This document shows positions 2,461-20,176 of a DNA stretch of 20,176 bases, piece after piece; position 1 is the stretch's first letter; each line of letters begins with the position of its first letter. The translations under genes and the position numbers were made by a program. Under the pieces are notes generated by a model. The model ran no database searches and had not been told where the DNA came from. It worked only from the letters and a program-made list of their open reading frames with translations. The DNA lies in the IMG/VR virus record IMGVR_UViG_3300032241_001846, positions 1-20,176 of that record; one strand, written 5' to 3'. Source of the DNA: a virus.

Positions 2461-3138
2461 TTATTTATCAGTTTGAGCACAGTATTCTGTTAATATGCGT
2501 TCTTGATGCCATTCTGCAGTATGAGCACCTACAGCATAGTCTTTAAAGCAAGGTGTACCTAGCGTATAATGCAACAGTTTGGCCGTAGGGTTTGATCCAA
2601 ATTCATCCGGTAACCAATTCCATTCCAGGGGCAAAGCACCAATTTTATCATCGCTAATCCAGGTAAATCTATGCAGGTAACTACCAGGTTTTTGAGCAAC
2701 AAATTCAGGAGTCAACACACGATGTTCTTCTGCTTCGCAGTTCCAAAGTATTACACTGCTCCAGTTTTTCCTAGGAAAATTTTCATTAGTATTACCCAGA
2801 TACTTTACAGTACAGCGAGTTTGATAGTTGTGCTTGACCACTTGTACAGATTTGGAAGAGTCCAACAAGTTCCAAAGATTTGCAATATCGTCTCGCAAGA
2901 GCATATCGCCGTCAAGGTAAATGGCCTGTCCACTGTAGTTCATCAGATGTGGCACTAGGAATCTACTATAAACAAACGTATTGCTGGCGTCGGTGTGAGT
3001 TTCTGTATAGTCGGACAGTAAATTAAGTGCCAAGGGTACAATGGCTACAGGCTGGCTGGCATGTCTAATAATACTGTTTACACAGGTATGATAGGCTATG
3101 GCTTCCTTGGGATCGTAGCCAACAAAGACCGTGATCAT
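2461..3138 (-). CDS. Glycosyltransferase (GT8-like, GT-A fold)
   Basis: A 225-residue protein beginning MITVFVGYDPKEAIAYHTC, typical of GT-A fold glycosyltransferases related to family 8. The metal- and nucleotide-sugar-binding DxD motif is present as LDGDM (DGD at residues 76-78), preceded by the conserved YSRFLVPHLM helix (57-66). A C-terminal HYTLGTPC segment (about 190) and AEWHQE follow. It is expected to transfer a sugar from a nucleotide sugar to an unknown acceptor in the host cytoplasm. Its start overlaps the stop of the nucleotidyltransferase-cupin gene by ATGA, so the two are probably translationally coupled. Together with that gene and the methyltransferase it forms a compact glycan-type cassette (2461-4630). 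Sugar donor and acceptor cannot be read. Confidence 0.85.
   Translation of the reverse strand: MITVFVGYDPKEAIAYHTCVNSIIRHASQPVAIVPLALNLLSDYTETHTDASNTFVYSRFLVPHLMNYSGQAIYLDGDMLLRDDIANLWNLLDSSKSVQVVKHNYQTRCTVKYLGNTNENFPRKNWSSVILWNCEAEEHRVLTPEFVAQKPGSYLHRFTWISDDKIGALPLEWNWLPDEFGSNPTAKLLHYTLGTPCFKDYAVGAHTAEWHQERILTEYCAQTDK
2462..2469 (-). promoter_or_regulatory. T4-type late promoter candidate upstream of the virion-like gene
   Basis: The minus strand carries GATAAATA, seven of eight matches to the T4 late consensus TATAAATA and a fit to the relaxed NATAAATA form used for T4-like cyanophages. The TAA stop codon of the glycosyltransferase gene lies inside it. Initiation would fall about 15 bases before the ATG at 2440, leaving AGGAGA within the leader. 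Placement immediately before the only structural-looking gene of this operon supports it; there is no experimental support. Confidence 0.5.
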
Positions 3139-3875
3139 TTGCGTTCGATATCTTCTTCTACACAGTTAGGACCATACTGTATTTCTACAATTCTGCATGG
3201 TCGGTCAAATGGATTGTATAGTCTATGCCACTCATTGGTGGGAATATGATAACTATCGTGTATGTCCAAAGACGTTTGCCGTTGATGTTCACCCTCAACC
3301 ACACAACGACCTTCTGACACTTGCCAGTATTCTGCACGACTCGTGTGTCGTTGCATACTGAGAGTCTGTCCTGGCATGACTGTGAGTTCTTTGACTTTGG
3401 TACCGGGCACTTCGTGTAACACACGATAGTAACCCCATGGACGTTCAGTCTTGGGTGCTTTCCATTCTTCCAAAATCCAACTGCTGGAATTGGACTTGTT
3501 GGATCCGCCAACACCGAACACAAACTCTATTCCAGGCACTGACATTTCAGGAATGTTGTCTTGGGTACGATCGCCACCATTGGCAAATATGATTCGACTG
3601 TCTGGATAGTGTGCTTGAACCTGCTGTAGCAAATGGCAGGCAGTACCGTCCTCGTCGTCAAAAGTGTAGACTTCATCTACACTATTCAAGTTGTTTAAGA
3701 CACACAAGCGTTCCTGCCAGGGCATAAAGGCGCGGCCTTTTTTGCGAGTCAACCATTCATCGCTGTTGATGCCCACAATCAGCATGTCGCCCAACAAGCG
3801 AGCTTCTTTTATCAGTTTAATATGTCCAGAATGGATTGGATCAAATCCACCACTTACCACTACAATAGTTTTCAT
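3135..3875 (-). CDS. Nucleotidyltransferase-cupin fusion (cytidylyltransferase + phosphomannose-isomerase-type cupin)
   Basis: A 246-residue two-domain protein. The N-terminal half (about 1-135) is a cytidylyltransferase-like domain of the HxGH superfamily: GGFDPIHSGH at residues 9-18 with His15 and His18, and NGGDR at 99-103. The C-terminal part (about 141-241) is a cupin of the type II phosphomannose isomerase kind (as in the C-terminus of ManC): RPWGYY at 145-150, a QRH...E stretch at 175-182, NEWHRL around 217 and EIQYG at 231-235. The protein probably activates a sugar or polyol phosphate as a CDP or related nucleotide derivative and may isomerise a sugar phosphate, supplying the glycosyltransferase whose gene overlaps its stop codon. 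It starts in an ATGA overlap with the methyltransferase stop. The exact substrate is unknown. I recall comparable fusions in phages, so the fusion is probably not unique. Confidence 0.87.
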   Translation of the reverse strand: MKTIVVVSGGFDPIHSGHIKLIKEARLLGDMLIVGINSDEWLTRKKGRAFMPWQERLCVLNNLNSVDEVYTFDDEDGTACHLLQQVQAHYPDSRIIFANGGDRTQDNIPEMSVPGIEFVFGVGGSNKSNSSSWILEEWKAPKTERPWGYYRVLHEVPGTKVKELTVMPGQTLSMQRHTSRAEYWQVSEGRCVVEGEHQRQTSLDIHDSYHIPTNEWHRLYNPFDRPCRIVEIQYGPNCVEEDIERK

Positions 3876-4630: not shown

Positions 4631-5079
4631 ATCTGTATGTCTTCCATTCCGGCTGCTCTTAATCTCACAATGTGTCCCAACATAAAATTTTTGCTCTCAT
4701 AGGCTTTGATTATACCCAGGAACTTGTTTCTCAGCAAGGCCACTTCATTGATAATGGTTTCAAAATCAATCACTTCATCCTCACCGTCTACATATTTTTC
4801 AGCATCTCGGCTGGTAAGAGCACGAGCATATCCTTCTAGATACTTTTGAAAGTGTTTGCGTCGTATCTTACGTAACTGTATATTGAGATAGTTTAACACG
4901 GCTTCGATTTCTTGTAGTTGGTTAAAGCGGTGCTCAGTGATTCCAGGCAAGTTACTGATGTTTTTTTCAACCAGTCCACCAATGCCGCAATCAAGTCTGG
5001 CACACTCTAATTCGTTTTCGTAGTGTGCAATAAAATCTGGAATGTTTCCTAAATCGGCGATAACTTTGCTATACCACAT
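4627..5079 (-). CDS. Hypothetical protein, possible UvsY-like recombination mediator
   Basis: A 150-residue, mostly helical and highly charged protein. The central RKIRRKHFQKYLEGY (about residues 72-86) is strongly basic. The C-terminal segment AYESKNFMLGHIVRLRAAG (about 126-144) resembles in spacing the C-terminal helix of T4 UvsY (IKSRGFAIKHIQDMR). Length (T4 UvsY is 137 residues) and location in the uvsX-gp32 operon fit a mediator that loads UvsX onto gp32-coated single-stranded DNA. The identity rests on a weak motif plus context, so I give no gene symbol. The start has AAGGA eight bases upstream and overlaps the end of the radical SAM gene by 11 bases; its stop overlaps the methyltransferase start. 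Confidence 0.75.
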   Translation of the reverse strand: MWYSKVIADLGNIPDFIAHYENELECARLDCGIGGLVEKNISNLPGITEHRFNQLQEIEAVLNYLNIQLRKIRRKHFQKYLEGYARALTSRDAEKYVDGEDEVIDFETIINEVALLRNKFLGIIKAYESKNFMLGHIVRLRAAGMEDIQI

Positions 5080-6346
5080 TATTTAATTCCTTCTCTAGCC
5101 AGGAAAATGTTTCATGCCAGTTGAGATCACGACGGCGATCAATTTCATCCAAAAACACCGCCAGTTGTTTAATTTTTTTACTGTCGTAGGTTGATGAGTT
5201 TATTTGCAACTGTATTCCTTGCATGTATTTTTTGGCTTCTCTTTGTTGCCATGTATGATCTGGCATGTTGTTTAAAATCTTATCAAAATCCGAATCAAAA
5301 AATCCAGGGCCAAAAATTTCTGGGTGTAAAAAATCATAGGTCATGACTGTAGTTGAAAAATAATGCCCAATTTCTCTATCTTGTCTTAATGGATTTATGT
5401 ATTGTAACAGTTCTGGCACAGTTTTAATAGTTAATCCGGACAAGGTTTGATTGATGTTTAAAGTTATCCAAGGTTGTTTAACTAGATATTCAAAGTTATT
5501 GCGCCACTGGTCAAGATCCAATCCAAATCTCACGTACTCTTGCTCGGGTCCAAAACAGTCAATGCTGACAGTAAGATCAAATCGTTTAATTCGTCCTTGT
5601 ATTACCAATTGATGTATGCGATCGATAATGCTGATCAAACGATTTTGAGGAGTTTTAAGATTAGTAATAACATTAAATTCCAACTCTGGATTGGTGTGTG
5701 TTTCTAAAAATTCTAAACAACGATCAAACTGTTCTTGATAAAATGGTTCACCGCCCAATACATGAAATCTGCGTAGGGTGTTGTAATTTGCATCCATCCA
5801 TTGCCAAAATTTTTCAGACAATGCATCAAAGTCTTTGGCTTTTTCTGCTCGATTATCAATGACTACACCTTGTTTTTCAAAGCGACCAAAGCGAATGTTT
5901 TCTTGTTGTATGCGACTGCTAAAACCATCCCAACAATATATGCAACTCATGTTACAGGTATTGTCAAGATATACTTCAACGATAGTTGGGGTCACGTGTA
6001 TAGCAGTGGGGTCATCTGTTAGTTCGGGTGGAATTTGATCAGGGATAGCAAGGTGAAACATACGATCGCTAGAACCGCCTGCTGTTTCAATATTTTTACA
6101 ATATTCGCATCCGCCAGTGGGCCACTGACCCTCTAACATTAAAGTTCTATCTGCTAATTTTTTTGGTGTATTATGAAACGTATCAAATGTATCAGCTGAA
6201 ACAGTATCGCCGTCGACCCTGTGGCAAGAACTGGTAACACCATTATATAGTCTAATGGTATTCCAGTTCCATTTTAATTTGCAAGAAGTTTCTGTCCGGA
6301 TTGGAAAATAACGATTAATAGTTGTCGTCCTCGTAATCTTCGTCAT
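5069..6346 (-). CDS. Radical SAM protein with N-terminal twitch-type cysteine cluster (1 of 4)
   Basis: 425 residues from the chosen ATG. The radical SAM signature CNMSCIYC (Cys131, 135, 138) should bind the 4Fe-4S cluster that cleaves S-adenosylmethionine, and LGGEP (197-201) is the SAM-contacting motif. Upstream, Cys22, Cys41 and the pair Cys80-x2-Cys83 form an N-terminal cluster of the twitch/SPASM kind, expected to hold an auxiliary iron-sulfur cluster. The start is uncertain. The open frame extends to 6439, but its first part is the out-of-frame reading of an acidic tandem repeat (RMTKRMTK). I chose the last in-repeat ATG (6346), which has GAGG upstream. Homologue-like sequence begins only at NRYFPIRT, so an ATT start at 6319, overlapping the TAA stop of the preceding gene, is a serious alternative. 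The substrate is unknown. Confidence 0.88.
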   Translation of the reverse strand: MTKITRTTTINRYFPIRTETSCKLKWNWNTIRLYNGVTSSCHRVDGDTVSADTFDTFHNTPKKLADRTLMLEGQWPTGGCEYCKNIETAGGSSDRMFHLAIPDQIPPELTDDPTAIHVTPTIVEVYLDNTCNMSCIYCWDGFSSRIQQENIRFGRFEKQGVVIDNRAEKAKDFDALSEKFWQWMDANYNTLRRFHVLGGEPFYQEQFDRCLEFLETHTNPELEFNVITNLKTPQNRLISIIDRIHQLVIQGRIKRFDLTVSIDCFGPEQEYVRFGLDLDQWRNNFEYLVKQPWITLNINQTLSGLTIKTVPELLQYINPLRQDREIGHYFSTTVMTYDFLHPEIFGPGFFDSDFDKILNNMPDHTWQQREAKKYMQGIQLQINSSTYDSKKIKQLAVFLDEIDRRRDLNWHETFSWLEKELNNVV

Positions 6347-6572
6347 CCTCTTCGTCATCCTCTTCGTCATCCTCTTCCGCGTGATCTTTGAGATAGTGGG
6401 CCAGAGCACCTTTGACGTCCGAGTCGCCCTTGAATGCATCTTTGATATCGTCAGCCGAAATGTCGTTATCGATCAATACCGAAACTATGGCTTCGGCTGC
6501 TTCGTCTCGATCTATCTTGTTTACATAACGTTTAAGTTCGGCCCAAATTTCATTTGCTAATTCTACTGACAT
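6315..6572 (-). CDS. Small acidic protein with Asp/Glu-rich tail, downstream of uvsX
   Basis: An 85-residue protein. A helical N-terminal domain (about residues 1-64, starting MSVELANEIWAELKRYV) is followed by a tail of almost pure Glu and Asp (EEDDEEDDEEDD). The frame is open up to 6653, but the start at 6572 is clear: GGAGG lies seven bases upstream within the end of uvsX and the ATG follows the uvsX stop by two bases. The tail is encoded by a 12-bp tandem repeat. Acidic tails like this mimic DNA or compete for basic patches, as the acidic C-terminus of single-stranded DNA-binding proteins does. A modulator of recombination or of gp32-UvsX exchange is therefore plausible but unproven. I know of no assigned function. 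Confidence 0.85.
   Translation of the reverse strand: MSVELANEIWAELKRYVNKIDRDEAAEAIVSVLIDNDISADDIKDAFKGDSDVKGALAHYLKDHAEEDDEEDDEEDDEDYEDDNY
6339..6374 (-). repeat. Three 12-bp tandem repeats encoding the acidic tail
   Basis: The plus strand reads TTCGTCATCCTC three times without mismatch (6339-6350, 6351-6362, 6363-6374). In the acidic gene each unit encodes Glu-Asp-Asp-Glu. In the +1 frame used by the radical SAM gene it encodes Arg-Met-Thr-Lys and supplies a candidate ATG per unit. Repeat number may vary by slippage without breaking either frame. Confidence 0.9.
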
Positions 6573-7635: not shown

Positions 7636-8790
7636 TTACTTTCCTTCTTTAAGTTTGTATAATTCTGTAAAAATCTTACTGCTGTCTACTCCACGTCTTT
7701 GATCCATCGCGGCCAACTGTGCAAATGATCCAGACACGTTTTTCTCAATTGGTTCCTGTATATAATGCAACATGTTTCTGTAACTGTCTTCCAACAAGTA
7801 TCCTGGTTGTTCGGCAATACGCAACTCCAATTTGACTTTTAACAAGTTTAACACATGATCTGGTAAATGTCTAATGTTTAGGTGGTCTGGGTTTATTAAT
7901 GCGCCAATTATGAAACTGTTGTTATGAAACCCCAGTTCCTTTAGGTAATCCACACAGCCAAACACTGTATTGTGATTCAGCAGGAACCATAACATGTTGA
8001 AACTGATCTTATGATCCAGTTGTCTGATGGTGTTTAGGTTATCCAAAAAATCTGACCAGCGGCCGCCAAATCGTATGTATTCAAATTCTTTTTCCGTGGT
8101 CTCAACACTTACTGTCCAATGAACATTTTTAAAACCGCATACAGCATCAAACACACCAGTATCAACCTTGCTAAGATTAGTGTTTATCCTGAGATTAACA
8201 TCGGGATTTAATTTTGCCAATAGTTCAAGATTCTGCTTCATCAGTAAAGGCTCACCACCGGCCAGATACACATGTTTTAATTTGTGAGCATGTTGATAGA
8301 TATAATTTTTAAAATCTTCTTGTTGTTGTTCTGTAGGGTTTGATATAACTGTACCTAATTCGTCGGCCCATCGACTGCTGAATTCTGGACTACAATATAC
8401 ACAGGCTAGATTACAGGTGTTGGTCCAACGTACATCAATGGTTTGTAGATCATGCTGTCCTGGTTGATATAGATCTACCGGAGTTCGTTTAAATTCTTTG
8501 ATGTAGAAAATCCTATCACTGATGATGTCAAACCCGGGTTTGCCATGCTCAAGATCATAGCATGTATGACATCCTGCTGCCGGTGCACCAGCAACAATAT
8601 TTTGCTGTTTGGTCATGTTGGTTGCACCCAGCAAGATCTGTTCGATAGGACGATCTTTAATATTGCCCAAAGCACCAGTGTCAAAATCACTACGGATGCA
8701 ATTTTTTACTGATCCATCTGAGTTGTACATGAGTCCTGTCCAGGGCATGGGGCAAAAGTATGGATTGGTTAAAATATCCTTGGGTGTCAT
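7636..8790 (-). CDS. Radical SAM protein with N-terminal twitch-type cysteine cluster (2 of 4)
   Basis: A 384-residue protein. N-terminal cysteines Cys13 (in YFCPMPW), Cys31, Cys74 and Cys77 form the auxiliary-cluster region. The radical SAM motif CNLACVYC (Cys126, 130, 133) and AGGEP (177-181) follow, with a partial TIM-barrel C-terminal to them. The layout matches what NCBI calls twitch-domain-containing radical SAM proteins, in which the auxiliary module precedes the catalytic domain rather than following it as in SPASM maturases. The family acts on peptides or sugars in other systems; the substrate here is unknown. It lies two bases upstream of uvsX and overlaps the dehydrogenase stop by ATGA, so it is firmly inside the recombination operon. 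Confidence 0.93.
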   Translation of the reverse strand: MTPKDILTNPYFCPMPWTGLMYNSDGSVKNCIRSDFDTGALGNIKDRPIEQILLGATNMTKQQNIVAGAPAAGCHTCYDLEHGKPGFDIISDRIFYIKEFKRTPVDLYQPGQHDLQTIDVRWTNTCNLACVYCSPEFSSRWADELGTVISNPTEQQQEDFKNYIYQHAHKLKHVYLAGGEPLLMKQNLELLAKLNPDVNLRINTNLSKVDTGVFDAVCGFKNVHWTVSVETTEKEFEYIRFGGRWSDFLDNLNTIRQLDHKISFNMLWFLLNHNTVFGCVDYLKELGFHNNSFIIGALINPDHLNIRHLPDHVLNLLKVKLELRIAEQPGYLLEDSYRNMLHYIQEPIEKNVSGSFAQLAAMDQRRGVDSSKIFTELYKLKEGK

Positions 8791-9320
8791 TGTGGGCCTA
8801 GACTGATGTCAGGAATATTCAATTGGTTTTTTGTGGCCATATCCAACAGGTCCAACATGGTCCTGGTCCAGTTATTGACATCAGCTGCTGGTGGTACAGT
8901 TTTTTCCGTACTGGTTGCTATATTGCCAGGTCGTACCAGGGTGATTTTTATGCCAAGACGACGATTGCGTAGTTGGCTTACCGCTTGCTCTAATGCAACT
9001 TTTTGTATTCTATATTGATCCAGACTGGCATCAAATGCCACAGGATCTTGGGTCATCATAGTGCTGATCACTATAATATGTTTATTGGTTCCGGACCAAC
9101 GTCGAGCCATTTCAAACAGGAGTTCAGTTTGTGCATACCCAGCCTGAGCATTATTGACAAACACATCACACGTCTCAATTTGATCACAAATTTTGGGTGT
9201 GTTACGAATGTTATTACCGTCACGTTGGCTAAGTCCTACAACTTCGTGTCCGTCCAAGATGTATTCTTCAGCCAGAGCTTGCCCTATGCCTGCTGTGTGC
9301 CCTGTGATGGCTATTTTCAT
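8787..9320 (-). CDS. Short-chain dehydrogenase/reductase (SDR)
   Basis: A 177-residue Rossmann oxidoreductase, shorter than the usual 250. The cofactor-binding glycine motif TGHTAGIG is at residues 6-13, the NNAQAG motif (variant of NNAG) at 56-61, a catalytic Ser at 86 (VIST) and the YxxxK pair as Tyr103 and Lys107 (YRIQK). RPGNIAT (about 129-135) is the conserved PG loop. All catalytic positions are therefore kept despite the reduced length, and it should be an active NAD(P)-dependent oxidoreductase. Position between two radical SAM genes, overlapping each by ATGA, suggests it reduces or oxidises an intermediate of the same pathway, for example a sugar. The substrate is unknown. Confidence 0.88.
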   Translation of the reverse strand: MKIAITGHTAGIGQALAEEYILDGHEVVGLSQRDGNNIRNTPKICDQIETCDVFVNNAQAGYAQTELLFEMARRWSGTNKHIIVISTMMTQDPVAFDASLDQYRIQKVALEQAVSQLRNRRLGIKITLVRPGNIATSTEKTVPPAADVNNWTRTMLDLLDMATKNQLNIPDISLGPQ

Positions 9321-10228
9321 ATCATACCTCTTAGTTGTTTTTGTTTGCTTATGTATGCCTGCCTGGTCTCAATATTGGTATTATCAACACTCAGCTCATA
9401 AGGATGTTTCAAGTAAGCATAACCGTGATCAATACCATGCTCTTGGGCAAATGCTTGTATGTTTGGCAGGTCAGCAACATTCAATATACTGACCGTGGTC
9501 CATAAATTTAACTTTACTGGCATAGTCTTGTACCGCATCAGGTTGTCATAAAAAGTTTCCCAGGCAATAGGCCAACGCATGTATTCGTGTACTGTGCCGA
9601 TCCCATCACAACTGACTGTGACCGTAACTTCAATACCACGATTGGCAATTTTAGTAAGTTCTTCTAGCACAATATTACAGTTAGTATTGAGTCTAAGTGT
9701 TCTGAGATTGGGTGGCAAGTTGGCCAATATGCGTTTATAATTTTTACTGTAGCTGGGCTCGCCGCCATTGATATCCAAGTGTCTGATGCGTTCTTGGGGT
9801 AACTTCCAGTAAGCTTCACTGTTGTTGACCACAGGAAATTTATCACTGACTAGAGCACCTATTCGAGTACTGCAATCAGGACTACAAGTTTGGCAAGCAG
9901 CATTACACACATTGTCTAGTACACCACCAACTTGTAGATAATCAGAATTGGATTCCAATGCGTCTAATGCAATAGCATGTATTCTAATACTGCTAGGACT
10001 TTCGACCTCAATTTCCTGACAGCGTATACACTCGGCGGGCCACTGGTCTTGAGCAAACTGTTCACGTATATCTTTTAACCAGGTACTGGCGTCCATCTCT
10101 TCCAAAGATCCAAATTTTGCAGGAGCAACCATGTGGCCACATCGACTCACTGTTCCGTCAGGATTAAAACGCACAAAGTGATCAAGTCTAGGACATTGCA
10201 TAGGTTGGTTGTAATATTTGTTGTGCAT
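9317..10228 (-). CDS. Radical SAM protein with N-terminal twitch-type cysteine cluster (3 of 4)
   Basis: 303 residues from the ATG at 10228, the shortest of the four paralogues. N-terminal cysteines 12, 30, 67 and 70 are followed by the radical SAM motif CNAACQTC (Cys108, 112, 115) and NGGEP in the strand after it. In the first motif the aromatic residue usually just before the last cysteine is Thr, which is unusual. The frame is open upstream to a TTG at 10234. No start has a good ribosome-binding site, and an ATG at 10201, giving MQCPRLDHF, is an alternative. The gene overlaps the end of the sulfotransferase-like gene in another frame and overlaps the SDR start by ATGA. It has probably lost part of the C-terminal barrel seen in the longer paralogues. 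Confidence 0.88.
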   Translation of the reverse strand: MHNKYYNQPMQCPRLDHFVRFNPDGTVSRCGHMVAPAKFGSLEEMDASTWLKDIREQFAQDQWPAECIRCQEIEVESPSSIRIHAIALDALESNSDYLQVGGVLDNVCNAACQTCSPDCSTRIGALVSDKFPVVNNSEAYWKLPQERIRHLDINGGEPSYSKNYKRILANLPPNLRTLRLNTNCNIVLEELTKIANRGIEVTVTVSCDGIGTVHEYMRWPIAWETFYDNLMRYKTMPVKLNLWTTVSILNVADLPNIQAFAQEHGIDHGYAYLKHPYELSVDNTNIETRQAYISKQKQLRGMI

Positions 10229-10850
10229 GCCCAATCACATAACTGTAGGCATCTGGGTCTGTTGTGTTTATGTGTTGTAACAACTGTTGGAATGTCATGG
10301 ACTGCCCGATACAGTTGAATATTGCCATGTCGATACGCTGAAACATTTCGTTGTTTTTTATAAAATTAATTTCGTTAATCAGCTCGGCAGTGGGTTCTAT
10401 TACTCCATCTGGTTTTAAATCAAGGCCATCAGCAACAGAATCAATATCATTCATGGATAAAAAATTCAACCGTGTGTCCGCAGAAAGATATCTTGCCAGA
10501 TTTAACAGCCATGAAAATTGTGGACAATAGTGGCGATCTAAATGTAGATAGTTTAGAGCAAACCATTTGACTGTAGATTGATCAAGGGTAGGATGATCTC
10601 GCATGGTGTGCTGTATAAAGGTATTAATTCCAGATATCAGTCTGTCGGAAGGATTTCTAATTATGACGTCAATCGAGTCAAGTTTGTATATCTGCTGATT
10701 AATAAGGATACGACGGTTGTTTTTGATGCGAGATGATAAAAGACTGCTGTGTCCGTTTTTAAAAATAGGATAAACATATCGCTGTGAGGGTATAATTTCT
10801 ATTACCTCACAGCGATCTGCAAAAACTACACGATCTAAATGCGAAAGCAT
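10188..10850 (-). CDS. Sulfotransferase-like protein
   Basis: A 220-residue protein that resembles carbohydrate-type sulfotransferases. VYPIFKNGHSSL (residues 26-37) fits the 5'-phosphosulfate-binding loop, where the usual PKTGSTSL is replaced by a variant with Lys31 and Ser35-Ser36. DVIIRNPSDRLISG (61-74) fits the 3'-phosphate-binding motif, with Arg65 and Ser73. If active it would use PAPS to sulfate a sugar or other hydroxyl, consistent with glycosyltransferases and the SDR in the same region. The assignment rests on these two motifs only; the rest is not recognisable. It starts three bases after the gp32 stop, and its last 41 bases overlap the next radical SAM gene in another frame. A shared fold without catalysis is possible. 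Confidence 0.68.
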   Translation of the reverse strand: MLSHLDRVVFADRCEVIEIIPSQRYVYPIFKNGHSSLLSSRIKNNRRILINQQIYKLDSIDVIIRNPSDRLISGINTFIQHTMRDHPTLDQSTVKWFALNYLHLDRHYCPQFSWLLNLARYLSADTRLNFLSMNDIDSVADGLDLKPDGVIEPTAELINEINFIKNNEMFQRIDMAIFNCIGQSMTFQQLLQHINTTDPDAYSYVIGHAQQILQPTYAMS

Positions 10851-14863: not shown

Positions 14864-16429
14864 TTAGCGTCTTACACTGATGAATGGCATAGGTGCACTG
14901 ATCATATCGCTGTGGTCTCGTAGTTGTTTGTCAATAACAGCATCAAATGTCTGTAGTTGCTGTAGCATACGCACTGCCAACAAGGAAGCCATAACTAGAT
15001 CGTCGGTTTCGCCTGGTTTGGCCGCATAGCTTACACCGTGTGCCACAAAGGTTTTGAGTTCTGATACCAAAGTGGCACTGCGTATTTTCATTTTACCCGA
15101 TTCTATTAGGGTTTTAAACTTGTTACAAGCGGCCAGCTTGGGCTTGTTTGAAGTGTTGAATCCTTTGCGATATCTACGACTGCCACCACCACCGGGCTCG
15201 CTAAGGAAATAGCCCGGAATGTTATCTTCACCATATTCGTCAATACTGATCAACGCTGCTTCACCAATGGTATTGTTTTCTATGCTGTAGTAGATACCTT
15301 CTGGGTCTTTGGTTTTTTCGTTGATGTGTTTACAAATGTCGGCTAGAATGCGTACTTGTTCTGGTATTGTGGTTTTGTTATGCCGCCATTCAGCTATCTG
15401 TTCGGTGGTGTTGGCTTCAAATACCTGTATGGCAGCTGGGTCGCCGCCGGTTCCTAGACTAGGATCTAAGGCTACCACATATATGCGACCAGCTCTAGGG
15501 TGTTGATACCAACGCACTTGTCCAGTTTTATACAAGGGCTCGTGTCCACGTAGATCCAACAGCTTGGCCGGAGCAATCAATGTTTCGTCATTGATAATGA
15601 ATTCACAACCCATCTCTCGACGAAAACGATCATCGCCCAACTGGGCCCGTTGTTCTTCGGCCCATTTTTCATCGCGGTCTGGATGTTCGTTCCAATAGCT
15701 ACGATAGGCTTTGAATCCGTTGATGCCTACTTCTGTAGGATTGCCGTAGCTGTCTTCACATTTGTTGGCCCCTTTCCACAACAATGCAAACTGATCTTCA
15801 TCCGAATTTGGTGTTGAAGTAATAATTGCCTTACCACCTGTGGCCAAAGTAGGGCTGATAGAGGTCCAAAACTCTTTGGCAATACCCGGACGAACAAACG
15901 CAAACTCGTCACAGTATAGGAGTGATATACTCATACCGCGTCCGGTGTTTTCTGTTGTTGTGGTTGAAACTATACGTGATCCGTTTTCAAAGTCCAGGTT
16001 ACCTTTGTTGTAACTGGTAACACCTGCACGGATATGGTCTGGGCATAGCTCATAGGCATAGCGGATACGTTGCATGATCTCCTGCGAACCAGTGTACTTG
16101 TGTGCGGCGATCAGGATGGTCGAATCCGGATGGAACATGGCCACCCATAACAAGTAGCCAGCAGCACTGGTTGATTTACCGGTTTGTCGCGGCATCATAC
16201 TGATACTGTAACGATTTTGATGATAGGTATCTATCAGGCGTTTTTGATATTCAAACGGATGATACAACATTTTTCCTTTAACAGGATGCTGTATGTAGAA
16301 GAAATTGTCCAGGAAATATTGCGGACCTGTCACAGGATCCGCACATTTCATGAATTCTTCTAACTGTTTATCAGTCCAGTGTTGTCGACGGTAAGGTGCC
16401 TTGACTAGAGTAGATTCATCTTTGATCAT
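14864..16429 (-). CDS. 17: Terminase large subunit gp17 (packaging ATPase-nuclease)
   Basis: A 521-residue T4 gp17-type terminase. ATPase domain: Walker A MPRQTGKS at 79-86, Walker B LLYCDE at 170-175 with the catalytic Glu175, and the coupling motif STP at 205-207. Nuclease domain of RNase H fold: VVALDPSLG with Asp322, YSIENN with Glu384, and the C-terminal TDD pair (Asp476-477). It cuts concatemeric DNA and pumps it into the prohead through the portal. It is shorter than T4 gp17 (610), mainly at the ends, as in related environmental phages. The start overlaps the stop of the upstream radical SAM gene by ATGA. No small terminase (gp16) is visible next to it. Confidence 0.96.
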   Translation of the reverse strand: MIKDESTLVKAPYRRQHWTDKQLEEFMKCADPVTGPQYFLDNFFYIQHPVKGKMLYHPFEYQKRLIDTYHQNRYSISMMPRQTGKSTSAAGYLLWVAMFHPDSTILIAAHKYTGSQEIMQRIRYAYELCPDHIRAGVTSYNKGNLDFENGSRIVSTTTTENTGRGMSISLLYCDEFAFVRPGIAKEFWTSISPTLATGGKAIITSTPNSDEDQFALLWKGANKCEDSYGNPTEVGINGFKAYRSYWNEHPDRDEKWAEEQRAQLGDDRFRREMGCEFIINDETLIAPAKLLDLRGHEPLYKTGQVRWYQHPRAGRIYVVALDPSLGTGGDPAAIQVFEANTTEQIAEWRHNKTTIPEQVRILADICKHINEKTKDPEGIYYSIENNTIGEAALISIDEYGEDNIPGYFLSEPGGGGSRRYRKGFNTSNKPKLAACNKFKTLIESGKMKIRSATLVSELKTFVAHGVSYAAKPGETDDLVMASLLAVRMLQQLQTFDAVIDKQLRDHSDMISAPMPFISVRR

Positions 16430-17562
16430 AGTAGGGTTCCAAATTCAGGCCACAAGCGCACAAACTCACCTTGCTTGTCGGGATGTAAAGTTTCTATATG
16501 TTCAACAAACTTTTGTAGCTTTGCTAACTCAGTTGGATCAGTTGTAGTTTTGGAACGATATTGTGTCAATGCATGCTCAAACAGTGCTTGTTCATCATCA
16601 ACCACTTCAAATTGTTCAAACACTTGTTCAATCTCGGTCGCAGCTAGACTGGCAATTTCACACCCATAATTTCTAGCATTTAATTCAGCTGGTGTTCCAA
16701 GATTTTGCCAGGTAATGCTAAGTCCGCGTTCTTGTGCAAAATTTTTAAAATGTACCAAGCGAGTAGCATTGTACAAATTGTAAACGGCATGTATGCCGCC
16801 CCAGTGTCCGTTGTTATGCATTAGGTCTTGCACCAAATCAAGATTACGCAACATCAAGTTCCAAGAAGCACCGTGTCTGACATATTCAAACTCGTCGCCG
16901 GTGTTGTCAAAACTAATACTCCATCCAACTTTACTGCGTGTTTTTAATTTTTGAAAGATTTCACTGCGTTCTAAATCCACGTTGAGATTTGTAATTACTG
17001 TGACTACTGCATCAGGGGGTATCACGTCTAACAGGCGAGCATTTTCTTTTAACAAAAATGGTTCGCCGCCAACTAAGGCCACTTCCTTGACTTGATCGTA
17101 GTGTTGACCAATGAATTCGCACACATCCTCGTAGTAGTGGCGAGTTTCAATGTTAATGAATTTTCCTTCAAGGTCACCCCATTTTGAACTCTGTGCCGAA
17201 TTGCAATAATTACAACTTTGATTACAGGTGATGTTCCACCTAACGTCAATCAGGGCAGGATATTCATAGTCTAGTCCAGCCGTGGTGCAATCAAAATCTG
17301 GATTCACTTCATTGTGCCAACGACGTTCACTATCGCCATTGTTACTTTCTCGTTTGACACAGCCACTACAATACTCGTGAGCCTGACCAGCCCGTATGCT
17401 GGCCCGTATTTCTTTGAGCTTTTCACCGTTTAGGATATCAGTAATTGAAAGCGTGTTGAGATTGCCTAGCATGTTAGGATTGCCGGCACAACAAGTTTTA
17501 ATATCACCACGAGGATTGATGTGCAAACCCCGCCAGGGGGCTGCACAATAGAAATTGCTCAT
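16426..17562 (-). CDS. Radical SAM protein with N-terminal twitch-type cysteine cluster (4 of 4)
   Basis: A 378-residue protein starting MSNFYCAAPWRGLH. The N-terminal auxiliary cluster consists of Cys6, Cys24-Cys25, Cys65 and Cys68. The radical SAM signature CNQSCNYC (Cys113, 117, 120) is followed by VGGEP (164-168). It is closest in layout to the paralogue at 7636-8790 (shared PW-x-GL and DVRW-x-x-TCN patterns) but sits in the packaging block, overlapping the terminase start by ATGA. No Shine-Dalgarno sequence precedes the ATG. Instead the start codon lies in one arm of a 7-bp inverted repeat, which may limit translation. The substrate is unknown. Confidence 0.92.
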   Translation of the reverse strand: MSNFYCAAPWRGLHINPRGDIKTCCAGNPNMLGNLNTLSITDILNGEKLKEIRASIRAGQAHEYCSGCVKRESNNGDSERRWHNEVNPDFDCTTAGLDYEYPALIDVRWNITCNQSCNYCNSAQSSKWGDLEGKFINIETRHYYEDVCEFIGQHYDQVKEVALVGGEPFLLKENARLLDVIPPDAVVTVITNLNVDLERSEIFQKLKTRSKVGWSISFDNTGDEFEYVRHGASWNLMLRNLDLVQDLMHNNGHWGGIHAVYNLYNATRLVHFKNFAQERGLSITWQNLGTPAELNARNYGCEIASLAATEIEQVFEQFEVVDDEQALFEHALTQYRSKTTTDPTELAKLQKFVEHIETLHPDKQGEFVRLWPEFGTLL

Positions 17563-17584: not shown

Positions 17585-18298
17585 TTACTGGCCTAAATTA
17601 AAACGCATTCCTGTAGCTTGCTCGATAGCGGCCATTGGTACTTGATATTTAGGTAAGTCTTGTACAGGCAATGCTGTATTAGGCATCAACCATGCTTCAA
17701 CTTTCTTGCTGTTCTTTTCAATAACAATCTTATATAGGCGTGTCGGAATACCTAGGCCGTTGCCGATTACCGGATGTCCTTGATCGTAAATACCACCAGA
17801 GATGATGTAGAAATCTGTACCAGGAGCCATGGCCCACTGACGCTCAAATGTTTCTAACTGCTTCCAGATACCGCGGTTATTGTTGGCCACTTGTGGAACC
17901 ATGTTTGACAGGTTAAAACTTTCCGTCATGATAGCATCATTTTGTGTGTTGTTACCTGCTGGAGCCATGTGCCCACGATCGTGTGTTTTACCAACCACGG
18001 CATAGTCGGCTAAACTTGCAGAGCAACGTGGATCAACACTTGCGTCTGGGTGGAAGTTGTCCTTGCGTTTTGCTGGACCTGTCATTGCGGCCACCGTTAG
18101 GTGTTCAAATACCGCTACTGGAGCCTTGACGCTACAGCGATGGATCACAGCATAGTTCATGTGGCAAATCTCTTGATCGCCAGGTTGTGCTTGATACTGT
18201 GGTGTGCCGTTAACAGTAAACTGTGGGCACTGTTTGTTGATTTGTGCGAACGCAAAAAGTGGTGCACAGAGTACAAGTGCTAATAAAATCTTTTTCAT
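17585..18298 (-). CDS. Exported DNA/RNA non-specific endonuclease (NUC1/EndoG family)
   Basis: A 237-residue nuclease of the beta-beta-alpha metal type. THDRGHMAP (residues 105-113) carries the catalytic DRGH motif with His110. The downstream NRGIWKQLE (141-149) holds the metal-binding Asn and conserved Glu region, and DFYIISGGIY follows. A signal peptide is clear: MKK, hydrophobic stretch 4-17, AFA cleavage site before Gln19. Several cysteines in the mature part could form periplasmic disulfides. It should degrade DNA or RNA in the periplasm or outside the cell, away from the phage's own cytoplasmic DNA. The start is supported by AAGGAA six bases upstream. The neighbours are the paralogous small genes on one side and a radical SAM gene on the other. 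It could have been captured from a bacterial host. Confidence 0.92.
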   Translation of the reverse strand: MKKILLALVLCAPLFAFAQINKQCPQFTVNGTPQYQAQPGDQEICHMNYAVIHRCSVKAPVAVFEHLTVAAMTGPAKRKDNFHPDASVDPRCSASLADYAVVGKTHDRGHMAPAGNNTQNDAIMTESFNLSNMVPQVANNNRGIWKQLETFERQWAMAPGTDFYIISGGIYDQGHPVIGNGLGIPTRLYKIVIEKNSKKVEAWLMPNTALPVQDLPKYQVPMAAIEQATGMRFNLGQ

Positions 18299-18336: not shown

Positions 18337-18735
18337 TTATCTGGGATAACCTGCAAATCCTGTCACAGGACTACGCTTATCCACGTCTGGCATTTCTTCA
18401 CTGTCTAGCCCGGCAATTTGAACGGCATCGCTGGCACTCATGCCCATTTCTCTAAGCGCATCATCAATATATTCTCCAGTGTGCGGATCGTAGCTGACAA
18501 TGATCATATTTTCGCCAAAAGTTTTGTCTTGTTCAAACGGTGGAACACCATCTTGTTTGCGTTGGGCGGCTCCTTTGGCACCGGCTATAGCCACACCAAA
18601 ACGATACTGTAAGTATGGGTCTTGATTCGCCAATTTAGGAATCTTCCATGCGCCAGGTAAGGCCAGTGCAACGTCGTAAGTTATAGACCCTGTGCGGCCA
18701 TCAATGTCTTCCGTAACGAATTCACGTGCTCTCAT
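18337..18735 (-). CDS. Small paralogous phage protein with MRAREF N-terminus and SPVxGFxGYPR C-terminus (A)
   Basis: A 132-residue protein starting MRAREFVTE and ending SPVTGFAGYPR. The middle contains DPYLQYRFGVAIAGAKG (about residues 39-55), shared in pattern with its neighbour (SPYMQWRFGIAMAGA). Thus paralogues A and B keep the same three blocks with different sequence between them. No catalytic motif is visible. MRAREFVTE resembles the N-terminal capsid-targeting peptides of T4 internal proteins (MKTYQEFIAE), which are cut by the prohead protease after an I/L-x-E motif; this is an inference. The start overlaps the stop of gene B by ATGA. The downstream 38-base gap before the nuclease gene is A/T-rich and holds no convincing promoter. 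Confidence 0.82.
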   Translation of the reverse strand: MRAREFVTEDIDGRTGSITYDVALALPGAWKIPKLANQDPYLQYRFGVAIAGAKGAAQRKQDGVPPFEQDKTFGENMIIVSYDPHTGEYIDDALREMGMSASDAVQIAGLDSEEMPDVDKRSPVTGFAGYPR

Positions 18736-19130
18736 CTAGGGTAGCCTTTGAATCCTTTGACTGGACTGACTTTTTGTACATGTTCTGGTTCTCTAGAGCG
18801 ATTATCTGTCAACTTGTTGACTGCACCTGCTCCAACAAATTTAGCTGCGGCATTAATAATTTCTAAATCAGCATCGCTATAAGTGGCCAGCAATGGATCG
18901 CCAGCAAATGCACCAGCTGGTGGTGTAGGGAAATCCGGAGCTCCGGCCATGGCAATACCAAATCGCCATTGCATGTAAGGGCTACCGCTTTGTTTATTCT
19001 GACTGATGTCAGGCATACTGATAGCACCTTTGATGGCAGAATATTGTGATTTTTTTAACTTTTTTGGATCGGCATGAATATCAGCAGCATTGCCAAAACG
19101 TGCTTCAACAACAAATTCTCTAGCTCTCAT
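18732..19130 (-). CDS. Small paralogous phage protein with MRAREF N-terminus and SPVxGFxGYPR C-terminus (B)
   Basis: A 132-residue protein of the same length as its neighbour A. It starts MRAREFVVEARFG and ends SPVKGFKGYPR, with SPYMQWRFGIAMAGAPDF in the middle (about 50-67). The shared codons of A and B differ at many silent positions, so the duplication is old and the blocks are under selection. The stretch between the RFG block and the tail differs from A. The start forms a TAATG overlap with the stop of the Ntn-hydrolase-like gene, so translation is probably coupled. The function is unknown; a packaged or scaffold-associated internal protein is one possibility. Confidence 0.82.
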   Translation of the reverse strand: MRAREFVVEARFGNAADIHADPKKLKKSQYSAIKGAISMPDISQNKQSGSPYMQWRFGIAMAGAPDFPTPPAGAFAGDPLLATYSDADLEIINAAAKFVGAGAVNKLTDNRSREPEHVQKVSPVKGFKGYPR

Positions 19131-20005
19131 TAGATATCTTTCATATTCATCTGACCAAATGGCGGATCACCTCGGGTGTTCTGCCATAACGCACGATTAC
19201 TTAATATCTCAACCCACACATTGGTGTTAGGACGATTCAAGTTCCAAAAATCAAATTCCACGTGACTGCTTACTGGACGGCAATACAGTGTACGTTCTTT
19301 AGGAACACATAATTGCTGACTGGTTGTACGCATTTTCTTTCGCTCTGTGCTGGTACGCATTATATTTAGCTGTGGATCATTGATGTAAACTTGACACATG
19401 CCATCCACTAGATCTTCTGGATCTTGCGCAGATTCTACTACTGCTTCGGCTAATAGTAATCTGGTTTCACTACTAATTCTACTAAGTGTTTCGCTTTTGT
19501 TTGTGGGTTTGCGTTGATATCCTGCATCTGACAACCATATGCCGTGATTGGTCCTTGCTACCATTTTATTTTTTGGAATTCGTTTGGCTACAAATTTGTA
19601 AGGTTTGCGACCATCCCAGTCACTGGCTTCGATCAAGATCATTGTGTCCTGGTCAAACACCATGGTGCAACCGCCCATTTTGTGACGAACGATTGTTCGA
19701 GCTGCATCCATGACATTGTTTTGTAGCAGTGCTTCGGCAATGTGTCTACCGTCTGGACTGGTCTTGGCTGTGCCAGCATCTACTTCTGCTTCGTCATCAT
19801 ACACATCAAGGCTTGTGTTTAGTATACTGATACCGCGGCTGTTGACGCCTTCTTTATAACCAGTGATTTCGTCGTGCATCATCATGCGGCCAAGGCCGTG
19901 CTCGTTTGATTCAATAAAACTTAATGTAGGAGTATAGTTGCGGTCTCTGTTCTTAGCACCGGCCCAACCTATTCCATCAAACCATTTGGCCACGATCACA
20001 CACAT
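19130..20005 (-). CDS. Putative Ntn-hydrolase (C45/choloylglycine-hydrolase-like)
   Basis: A 291-residue protein beginning MCVIVAKWF. Removal of Met1 would expose Cys2 as an N-terminal nucleophile, the hallmark of the cysteine Ntn-hydrolases. Supporting family-like features are the AKNRDRNY segment (17-24), where an Arg/Asp pair follows the first strand, GVNSRGISILN (53-63), which matches the G-x-N-x-x-G-L-x pattern, and ARTNHG (150-155), equivalent to the TNH motif of acyltransferase/peptidase C45 and NAAA-like enzymes. It may hydrolyse or transfer an amide bond on a peptide or acyl-amino compound. It sits between two genes ending in the SPVxGFxGY(P)R tag and is joined to both by TAATG overlaps. 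The C-terminal 80 residues are unrecognised. Family assignment is moderate; the substrate is unknown. Confidence 0.78.
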   Translation of the reverse strand: MCVIVAKWFDGIGWAGAKNRDRNYTPTLSFIESNEHGLGRMMMHDEITGYKEGVNSRGISILNTSLDVYDDEAEVDAGTAKTSPDGRHIAEALLQNNVMDAARTIVRHKMGGCTMVFDQDTMILIEASDWDGRKPYKFVAKRIPKNKMVARTNHGIWLSDAGYQRKPTNKSETLSRISSETRLLLAEAVVESAQDPEDLVDGMCQVYINDPQLNIMRTSTERKKMRTTSQQLCVPKERTLYCRPVSSHVEFDFWNLNRPNTNVWVEILSNRALWQNTRGDPPFGQMNMKDI

Positions 20006-20176
20006 TAGCGATATCCTTTGAATCCTGTTACCGGACTGGTATGATTAGTGTCATCAGGTTCATGACTACCGGTGCTGATATAATCTTTAGGCTTCATGCC
20101 CAATTTTTTCATTATGGCCTTAAGTTTGTCGCGCTCGGGTTGGGTATAGCCGCTGAATATGGGCATGTTGCCAAAG
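20005..20176 (-). CDS. Partial gene, C-terminus carrying the SPVxGFxGYR tag
   Basis: A minus-strand frame enters at the right edge and runs 56 codons to TAA at 20005-20007. The visible end reads IMKKLGMKPKDYI (central region) and finishes SPVTGFKGYR, the same tail as the two paralogues at 18337-19130 but without the Pro. The rest differs, and the N-terminus lies outside the window, so whether it starts with MRAREF is not known. The stop codon overlaps the start of the Ntn-hydrolase-like gene (TAATG). Confidence 0.8.
   Translation of the reverse strand, partial: FGNMPIFSGYTQPERDKLKAIMKKLGMKPKDYISTGSHEPDDTNHTSPVTGFKGYR

Follow-up and report, generated by a model that had tools for sequence, protein, structure and literature searches.

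The window, that is, the whole 20,176-nucleotide stretch of IMG/VR virus record IMGVR_UViG_3300032241_001846 that was analysed, ends in a cassette of minus-strand genes encoding, in 5′ to 3′ order, copy C of a small protein, a protein of 291 aa, copy B and copy A. Neighboring genes of the cassette are joined by stop–start overlaps of 1 to 4 bases; the stop codon of copy B overlaps the start codon of copy A as ATGA. On the 3′ side of copy A, the minus strand carries an endonuclease gene, then a radical SAM gene and then the gene for the terminase large subunit. The cassette lies between phage tail/head completion genes and the terminase, and in several contigs it is adjoined by other genes bearing the N-terminal motif described below, here called the head.

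Copy A (18337..18735, minus strand, stop codon included) and copy B (18732..19130, minus strand) are each 132 aa long. An earlier note on this DNA had described them as adjacent proteins with a common N-terminal head, centre and C-terminal tail, and both open reading frames and all three blocks (MRAREFVxE, PYxQ[YW]RFG[VI]A and SPVxGFxGYPR) are indeed present. In copy A, the head MRAREFVTE occupies positions 18709..18735, the central block DPYLQYRFGVA 18589..18621 and the tail SPVTGFAGYPR 18340..18372. The corresponding segments of copy B are MRAREFVVE at 19104..19130, SPYMQWRFGIA at 18951..18983 and SPVKGFKGYPR at 18735..18767, all of them likewise on the minus strand. In both heads a scissile bond is predicted after E9, based on the conservation of the head and on the P1′ residues of the homologues. 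Within the central block of copy A, Y41 and R45 are nearly invariant among 89 aligned homologues. Copy C (20005..20176, minus strand) is represented by its C-terminal part, as its frame continues past the window edge; the true start lies outside the window, and the ATG at 20166 is an internal codon. This edge-cut protein had been said to have the same tail, and it ends in SPVTGFKGYR (20008..20037, minus strand). Relatives hold a 126-aa head-bearing paralogue at this place, which identifies it as the C paralogue of the cassette.

The 291-aa gene between copies C and B (19130..20005, minus strand) is found at the same place in four relatives. It has no head and starts with MCVIVAK. The product weakly resembles the C45/AAT N-terminal-nucleophile acyltransferases (NCBIfam C45_proenzyme, E = 2e-6, below the cut-off; Pfam AAT, E = 0.03), a class of autoproteolytic acyltransferases, and it begins with MC. 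An enzyme that depends on a free Cys at its N-terminus would be unable to bear a head. It also follows from this gene that genomic company by itself proves nothing.

Copies A and B align end to end with 38–39% identity (E = 8e-10). The earlier claim that the sequence between the blocks differs was thus too strong, and by this alignment the two are ordinary diverged full-length paralogues with especially conserved ends. Scans of IMG/VR returned 59 relatives of copy B and 136 of copy A, on contigs of up to 524 kb. The family comprises sub-types A, B, C and D, and most of the large contigs checked carry two or three copies close together. Neither the 50,697 phage records searched nor the GTDB genome contigs yielded a relative. 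Neither copy had a whole-protein match in Pfam, PHROGs or NCBIfam, the sole match to either copy being phrog_21826 (E = 0.025 over 23 residues). Searches of the PDB by sequence and by fold gave no convincing relative, and the BFVD search gave one match, the uncultured-phage protein A0A6J5KNQ7. Comparison of the family core profile with the T4 region holding ipI, ipII and ipIII showed no homology (best E = 1.8).

Conservation of the head was assessed in relatives found with a core-only profile, so that complete ORFs were not selected for possessing it. The head, as [MVL]RAxEF[ILVM]xE, was present in 236 of 241 complete IMG/VR relatives. Among the five exceptions, one appears to be truncated at the 5′ end, one starts MKIREILREG, one MKISDIINED and two MKTFLEYLAEAE. 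After the initial Met, the heads of copies A and B are identical at seven of eight positions, a level reached in none of 200,000 shuffles. As the earlier note had observed, silent sites have diverged: the two heads differ at A3 (GCA/GCT), R4 (CGT/AGA) and F6 (TTC/TTT). The head-bearing relatives likewise encode A3 with GCA (103), GCC (70), GCT (54) or GCG (9). Since synonymous codons vary at invariant head residues, selection acts on the peptide, and a nucleotide signal or gene conversion could be ruled out as the origin of the head. In AlphaFold models of both copies the head is poorly ordered, with pLDDT values of 53 and 47 for residues 1–10.

The tail behaves differently from the head in that it is limited to one paralogue family, whereas the head is modular across many. 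The description of a modular family therefore holds for the head and fails for the tail. FxG[YF] occurs near the C-terminus in 222 of the 241 complete relatives, and the tail was seen only in this family. The proposal that it serves in docking or sorting is unsupported. Among the first three contigs scanned in full, C-termini resembling the tail in ORFs outside the family proved to be chance ORFs, and the tail was rejected as a general tag. Enrichment of a looser N-x-S-P motif near C-termini was only marginal (p = 0.024). Two prohead-related proteins carry an N-x-S-P of loose similarity close to their C-terminus, a weak likeness. The gp68-like core protein encoded just upstream of gp21 (contigs G001, G004, G005, G008 and others) often ends in NTKSP or NAKSP and a short basic stretch, which loosely recalls NKTSPVKGF in the tail of the family. 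A tag that is cut off is the less likely reading of the tail; it more probably belongs to the mature protein or provides a contact surface.

Occurrence of the head outside the family was examined with the strict pattern M[RK]x(1-4)[ED][FY][ILV]xE in eight contigs (130–344 kb) scanned whole or nearly so. The pattern begins 27 of 1811 ORFs, counted from the first ATG, compared with 3 of 7901 internal Met. Leaving out the family, these values were 11 of 1794 gene starts and 3 of 7862 internal Met (p = 1.9e-6). IMG/VR was also scanned at the DNA level with an exact pattern for MRAxEF[IL]xEA. Among the matches listed, all 80 loci examined were N-terminal: each was in frame with a start, and 49 in-frame open codons or fewer lay upstream. 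A control with the same codons in permuted order gave no match in IMG/VR. Removal of the first 12 residues left the 80 listed loci in 23 clusters, with the 132-aa family accounting for 40 of the 80.

Carriers of the head among the listed loci include a protein with an ART-PolyVal domain (E = 1.6e-28), DUF6267 and DUF6321 proteins and HTH proteins. In the large contigs, phrog_14802 ('virion structural protein'), DUF6321 proteins and GNAT acetyltransferases are among the carriers. In a homology search for DUF6321-type proteins, 44 of 61 ORFs closed at the 5′ end bore a wider form of the head, on many different N-terminal modules. Head-bearing ART-PolyVal and GNAT enzymes are encoded at L425:12536-13330, L166:17254-18591 and L156:13394-15382. 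These enzymes are candidate injected effectors that modify host proteins.

The resemblance of the head to T4 capsid-targeting peptides, pointed out in the earlier note, is borne out by its gp21-like end, by its reuse on unrelated proteins and by the relatives starting MKTFLEYLAEAE, which is close to the T4 peptide. In T4, an N-terminal peptide of 10–19 residues takes internal proteins into the prohead and is removed by gp21 after L/I-x-E; the first ten residues of IPIII suffice for targeting (PMC9026906). As read from the T4 record, IPII and IPIII start MKTYQEFIAE|A and gp24 starts MAKINELLRE|S, while gp23 has FLTE|A at residue 65. In the present family, Glu9 is found in all 236 head-bearing relatives. 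The residue two positions before it is I in 137, V in 64, L in 31 and M in 4 of these; directly after Glu9, 161 have G, A, S or T. Copies A and B have V before x-E, compared with L/I in the T4 motif, and 68 of the 236 relatives have V or M. With respect to positions 4 and 7 of the IPIII targeting peptide, the Phe aligns but Tyr4 has no counterpart in MRAxEF; divergent MKTFLEYLAE members have Phe4.

T4 IPI, IPII, IPIII and Alt are likewise unrelated proteins with a short N-terminal peptide that ends in E-F-I-x-E plus a small residue. Moreover, the phages described here have a gp21-type protease, and some of the head carriers are ART-class enzymes, like Alt. There are also differences. The head here is MRAxEF[IV]xE, of nine residues, compared with the ten of MKTYQEFIAE; V is common before x-E and Tyr4 is missing. 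In addition, the mature proteins bear no relation to the internal proteins of T4, the carrier families are many more, and packaging is in the present case a prediction.

A gp21-like prohead protease had been named in the earlier note as a thing to look for. The 20-kb window does not reach the head operon; Peptidase_S77 (gp21) and gp23 were found in 8 of 10 large related contigs, which hold the operon in T4 order, portal-67-68-21-22-23. In these phages, YLKE|NASSG or LLAE|SS lies around residue 40 of gp23, which would be cleaved there. Of 17 further head-bearing contigs, 14 showed no gp21, and these also showed no gp23 above the cut-off. Where present on these further contigs, the terminase is of the same type (63–82% identity). 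An alternative head module was sought on the contigs without gp21 and was rejected, as neither an S78 protease nor an HK97-type capsid was found there. The missing gp21 and gp23 on the 14 contigs are probably due to incompleteness, these contigs being fragments.

The three proteins are probably paralogous internal head proteins of a T4-type phage, with the head as a packaging and maturation tag similar to the capsid-targeting sequence. The sequences show that the head is conserved and is reused on unrelated proteins, that it ends in a gp21-like site, and that relatives encode gp21, gp22 and gp23. From these findings we infer targeting, cleavage, packaging and ejection of the head-bearing proteins. 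The first nine residues would act like the T4 capsid-targeting sequence, taking the protein into the prohead core during head assembly. The gp21-type protease of the phage would then cut after Glu9, and the mature protein would stay inside the capsid and later be ejected with the DNA.

We lean slightly towards a wider version of this reading. A large group of jumbo phages, T4-type and uncultured, would use a single recombinable nine-residue start, MRAxEF[IVL]xE, as the general packaging address of dozens of proteins unrelated to one another. Injected cargo, including ADP-ribosyltransferases and acetyltransferases, could then be read from gene starts, and the 132-aa paralogues would be the most abundant, hitherto unknown cargo. 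In T4, only a few proteins are known to have the capsid-targeting peptide. Should this principle extend to many abundant phages that are uncultured, with a simple consensus that can be searched for, metagenomes would allow culture-free prediction of virion cargo and of injected effectors. The head might also serve as a short tag with which proteins could be loaded into the heads of other phages, and the question of what large phages inject would become a list of named candidates.

A short unstructured N-terminal peptide on unrelated proteins would fit any sorting signal, and some of the carriers are enzymes (GNAT, ART-PolyVal). The head might thus be an uncut address for another site or partner in the infected cell, such as the replication compartment, a membrane site or a chaperone. 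This is unlikely, given that the Glu, followed by a small residue, fits a prohead-protease site, that the phages are T4-type by gp20–gp23, and that the divergent relatives approach T4's own targeting peptide. Less probable again is that the head serves the own function or turnover of each protein, as a degron, an inhibitory propeptide or an oligomer contact, and has spread by swapping of a handy start. Although the DUF6321 proteins clearly show domain shuffling, one peptide on 23 unrelated clusters is hard to square with private functions, and the gp21-like site would be left unexplained. That there is nothing special here, only paralogues with ends kept by descent or gene conversion, agrees with the three window proteins being full-length paralogues but is very improbable, being already contradicted by the head on non-homologous proteins (p = 1.9e-6) and by its varying silent sites, which fit neither conversion nor a nucleotide signal.

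With packaging and maturation kept as the preferred role of the head, several known systems can be compared. By terminase, the nearest cultured relatives are the Arenbergviridae, Pseudomonas phage PA5oct and its relatives (51.7% identity). They have the same head operon and a similar N-terminal segment of gp23; nevertheless, the 132-aa family was not found in them, and head-like starts are few and degenerate. With so few and such degenerate starts to count, PA5oct was rejected as a direct proteomic test of the head. PA5oct gp282, a phrog_14802 relative marked ESI-MS/MS, starts MKSFRDYYDASKR and has lost the Glu, so that its presence in the virion is no test of the head: it is company, not proof.

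In two papers on giant phages of the SPN3US/phiKZ type, ejection proteins are described as packaged, with propeptides cut by a prohead protease during head assembly (PMC7411985, PMC10052503). The head would resemble these propeptides in that respect, but they belong to a different phage lineage, with a different protease. Injected ART and GNAT proteins have also been discussed (PMC7824862). The likeness to polyvalent proteins injected with phage DNA consists of one clear ART-PolyVal head carrier, other carriers being GNAT enzymes. The carriers here are small or mid-sized and marked by the head, in contrast to very large multidomain proteins.

Other genes of the window were also noted. The product of the endonuclease gene next to the cassette (17585-18298, minus strand) is a non-specific DNA/RNA endonuclease (Endonuclease_NS, E = 1e-36) and begins with a signal-peptide-like sequence; the gene adjoins the cassette in contig G001 as well. 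There are three radical SAM genes (5069-6439, 7636-8790 and, on the minus strand, 16426-17562), two of them with SPASM matches. A fourth radical SAM candidate at 9317-10234 has a CxxxCxxC-like motif and no Pfam match. At 2461-3875 on the minus strand, a glycosyltransferase family 8 gene lies beside a fused cytidylyltransferase and mannose-6-phosphate isomerase/cupin gene, together forming a small sugar-modification set.
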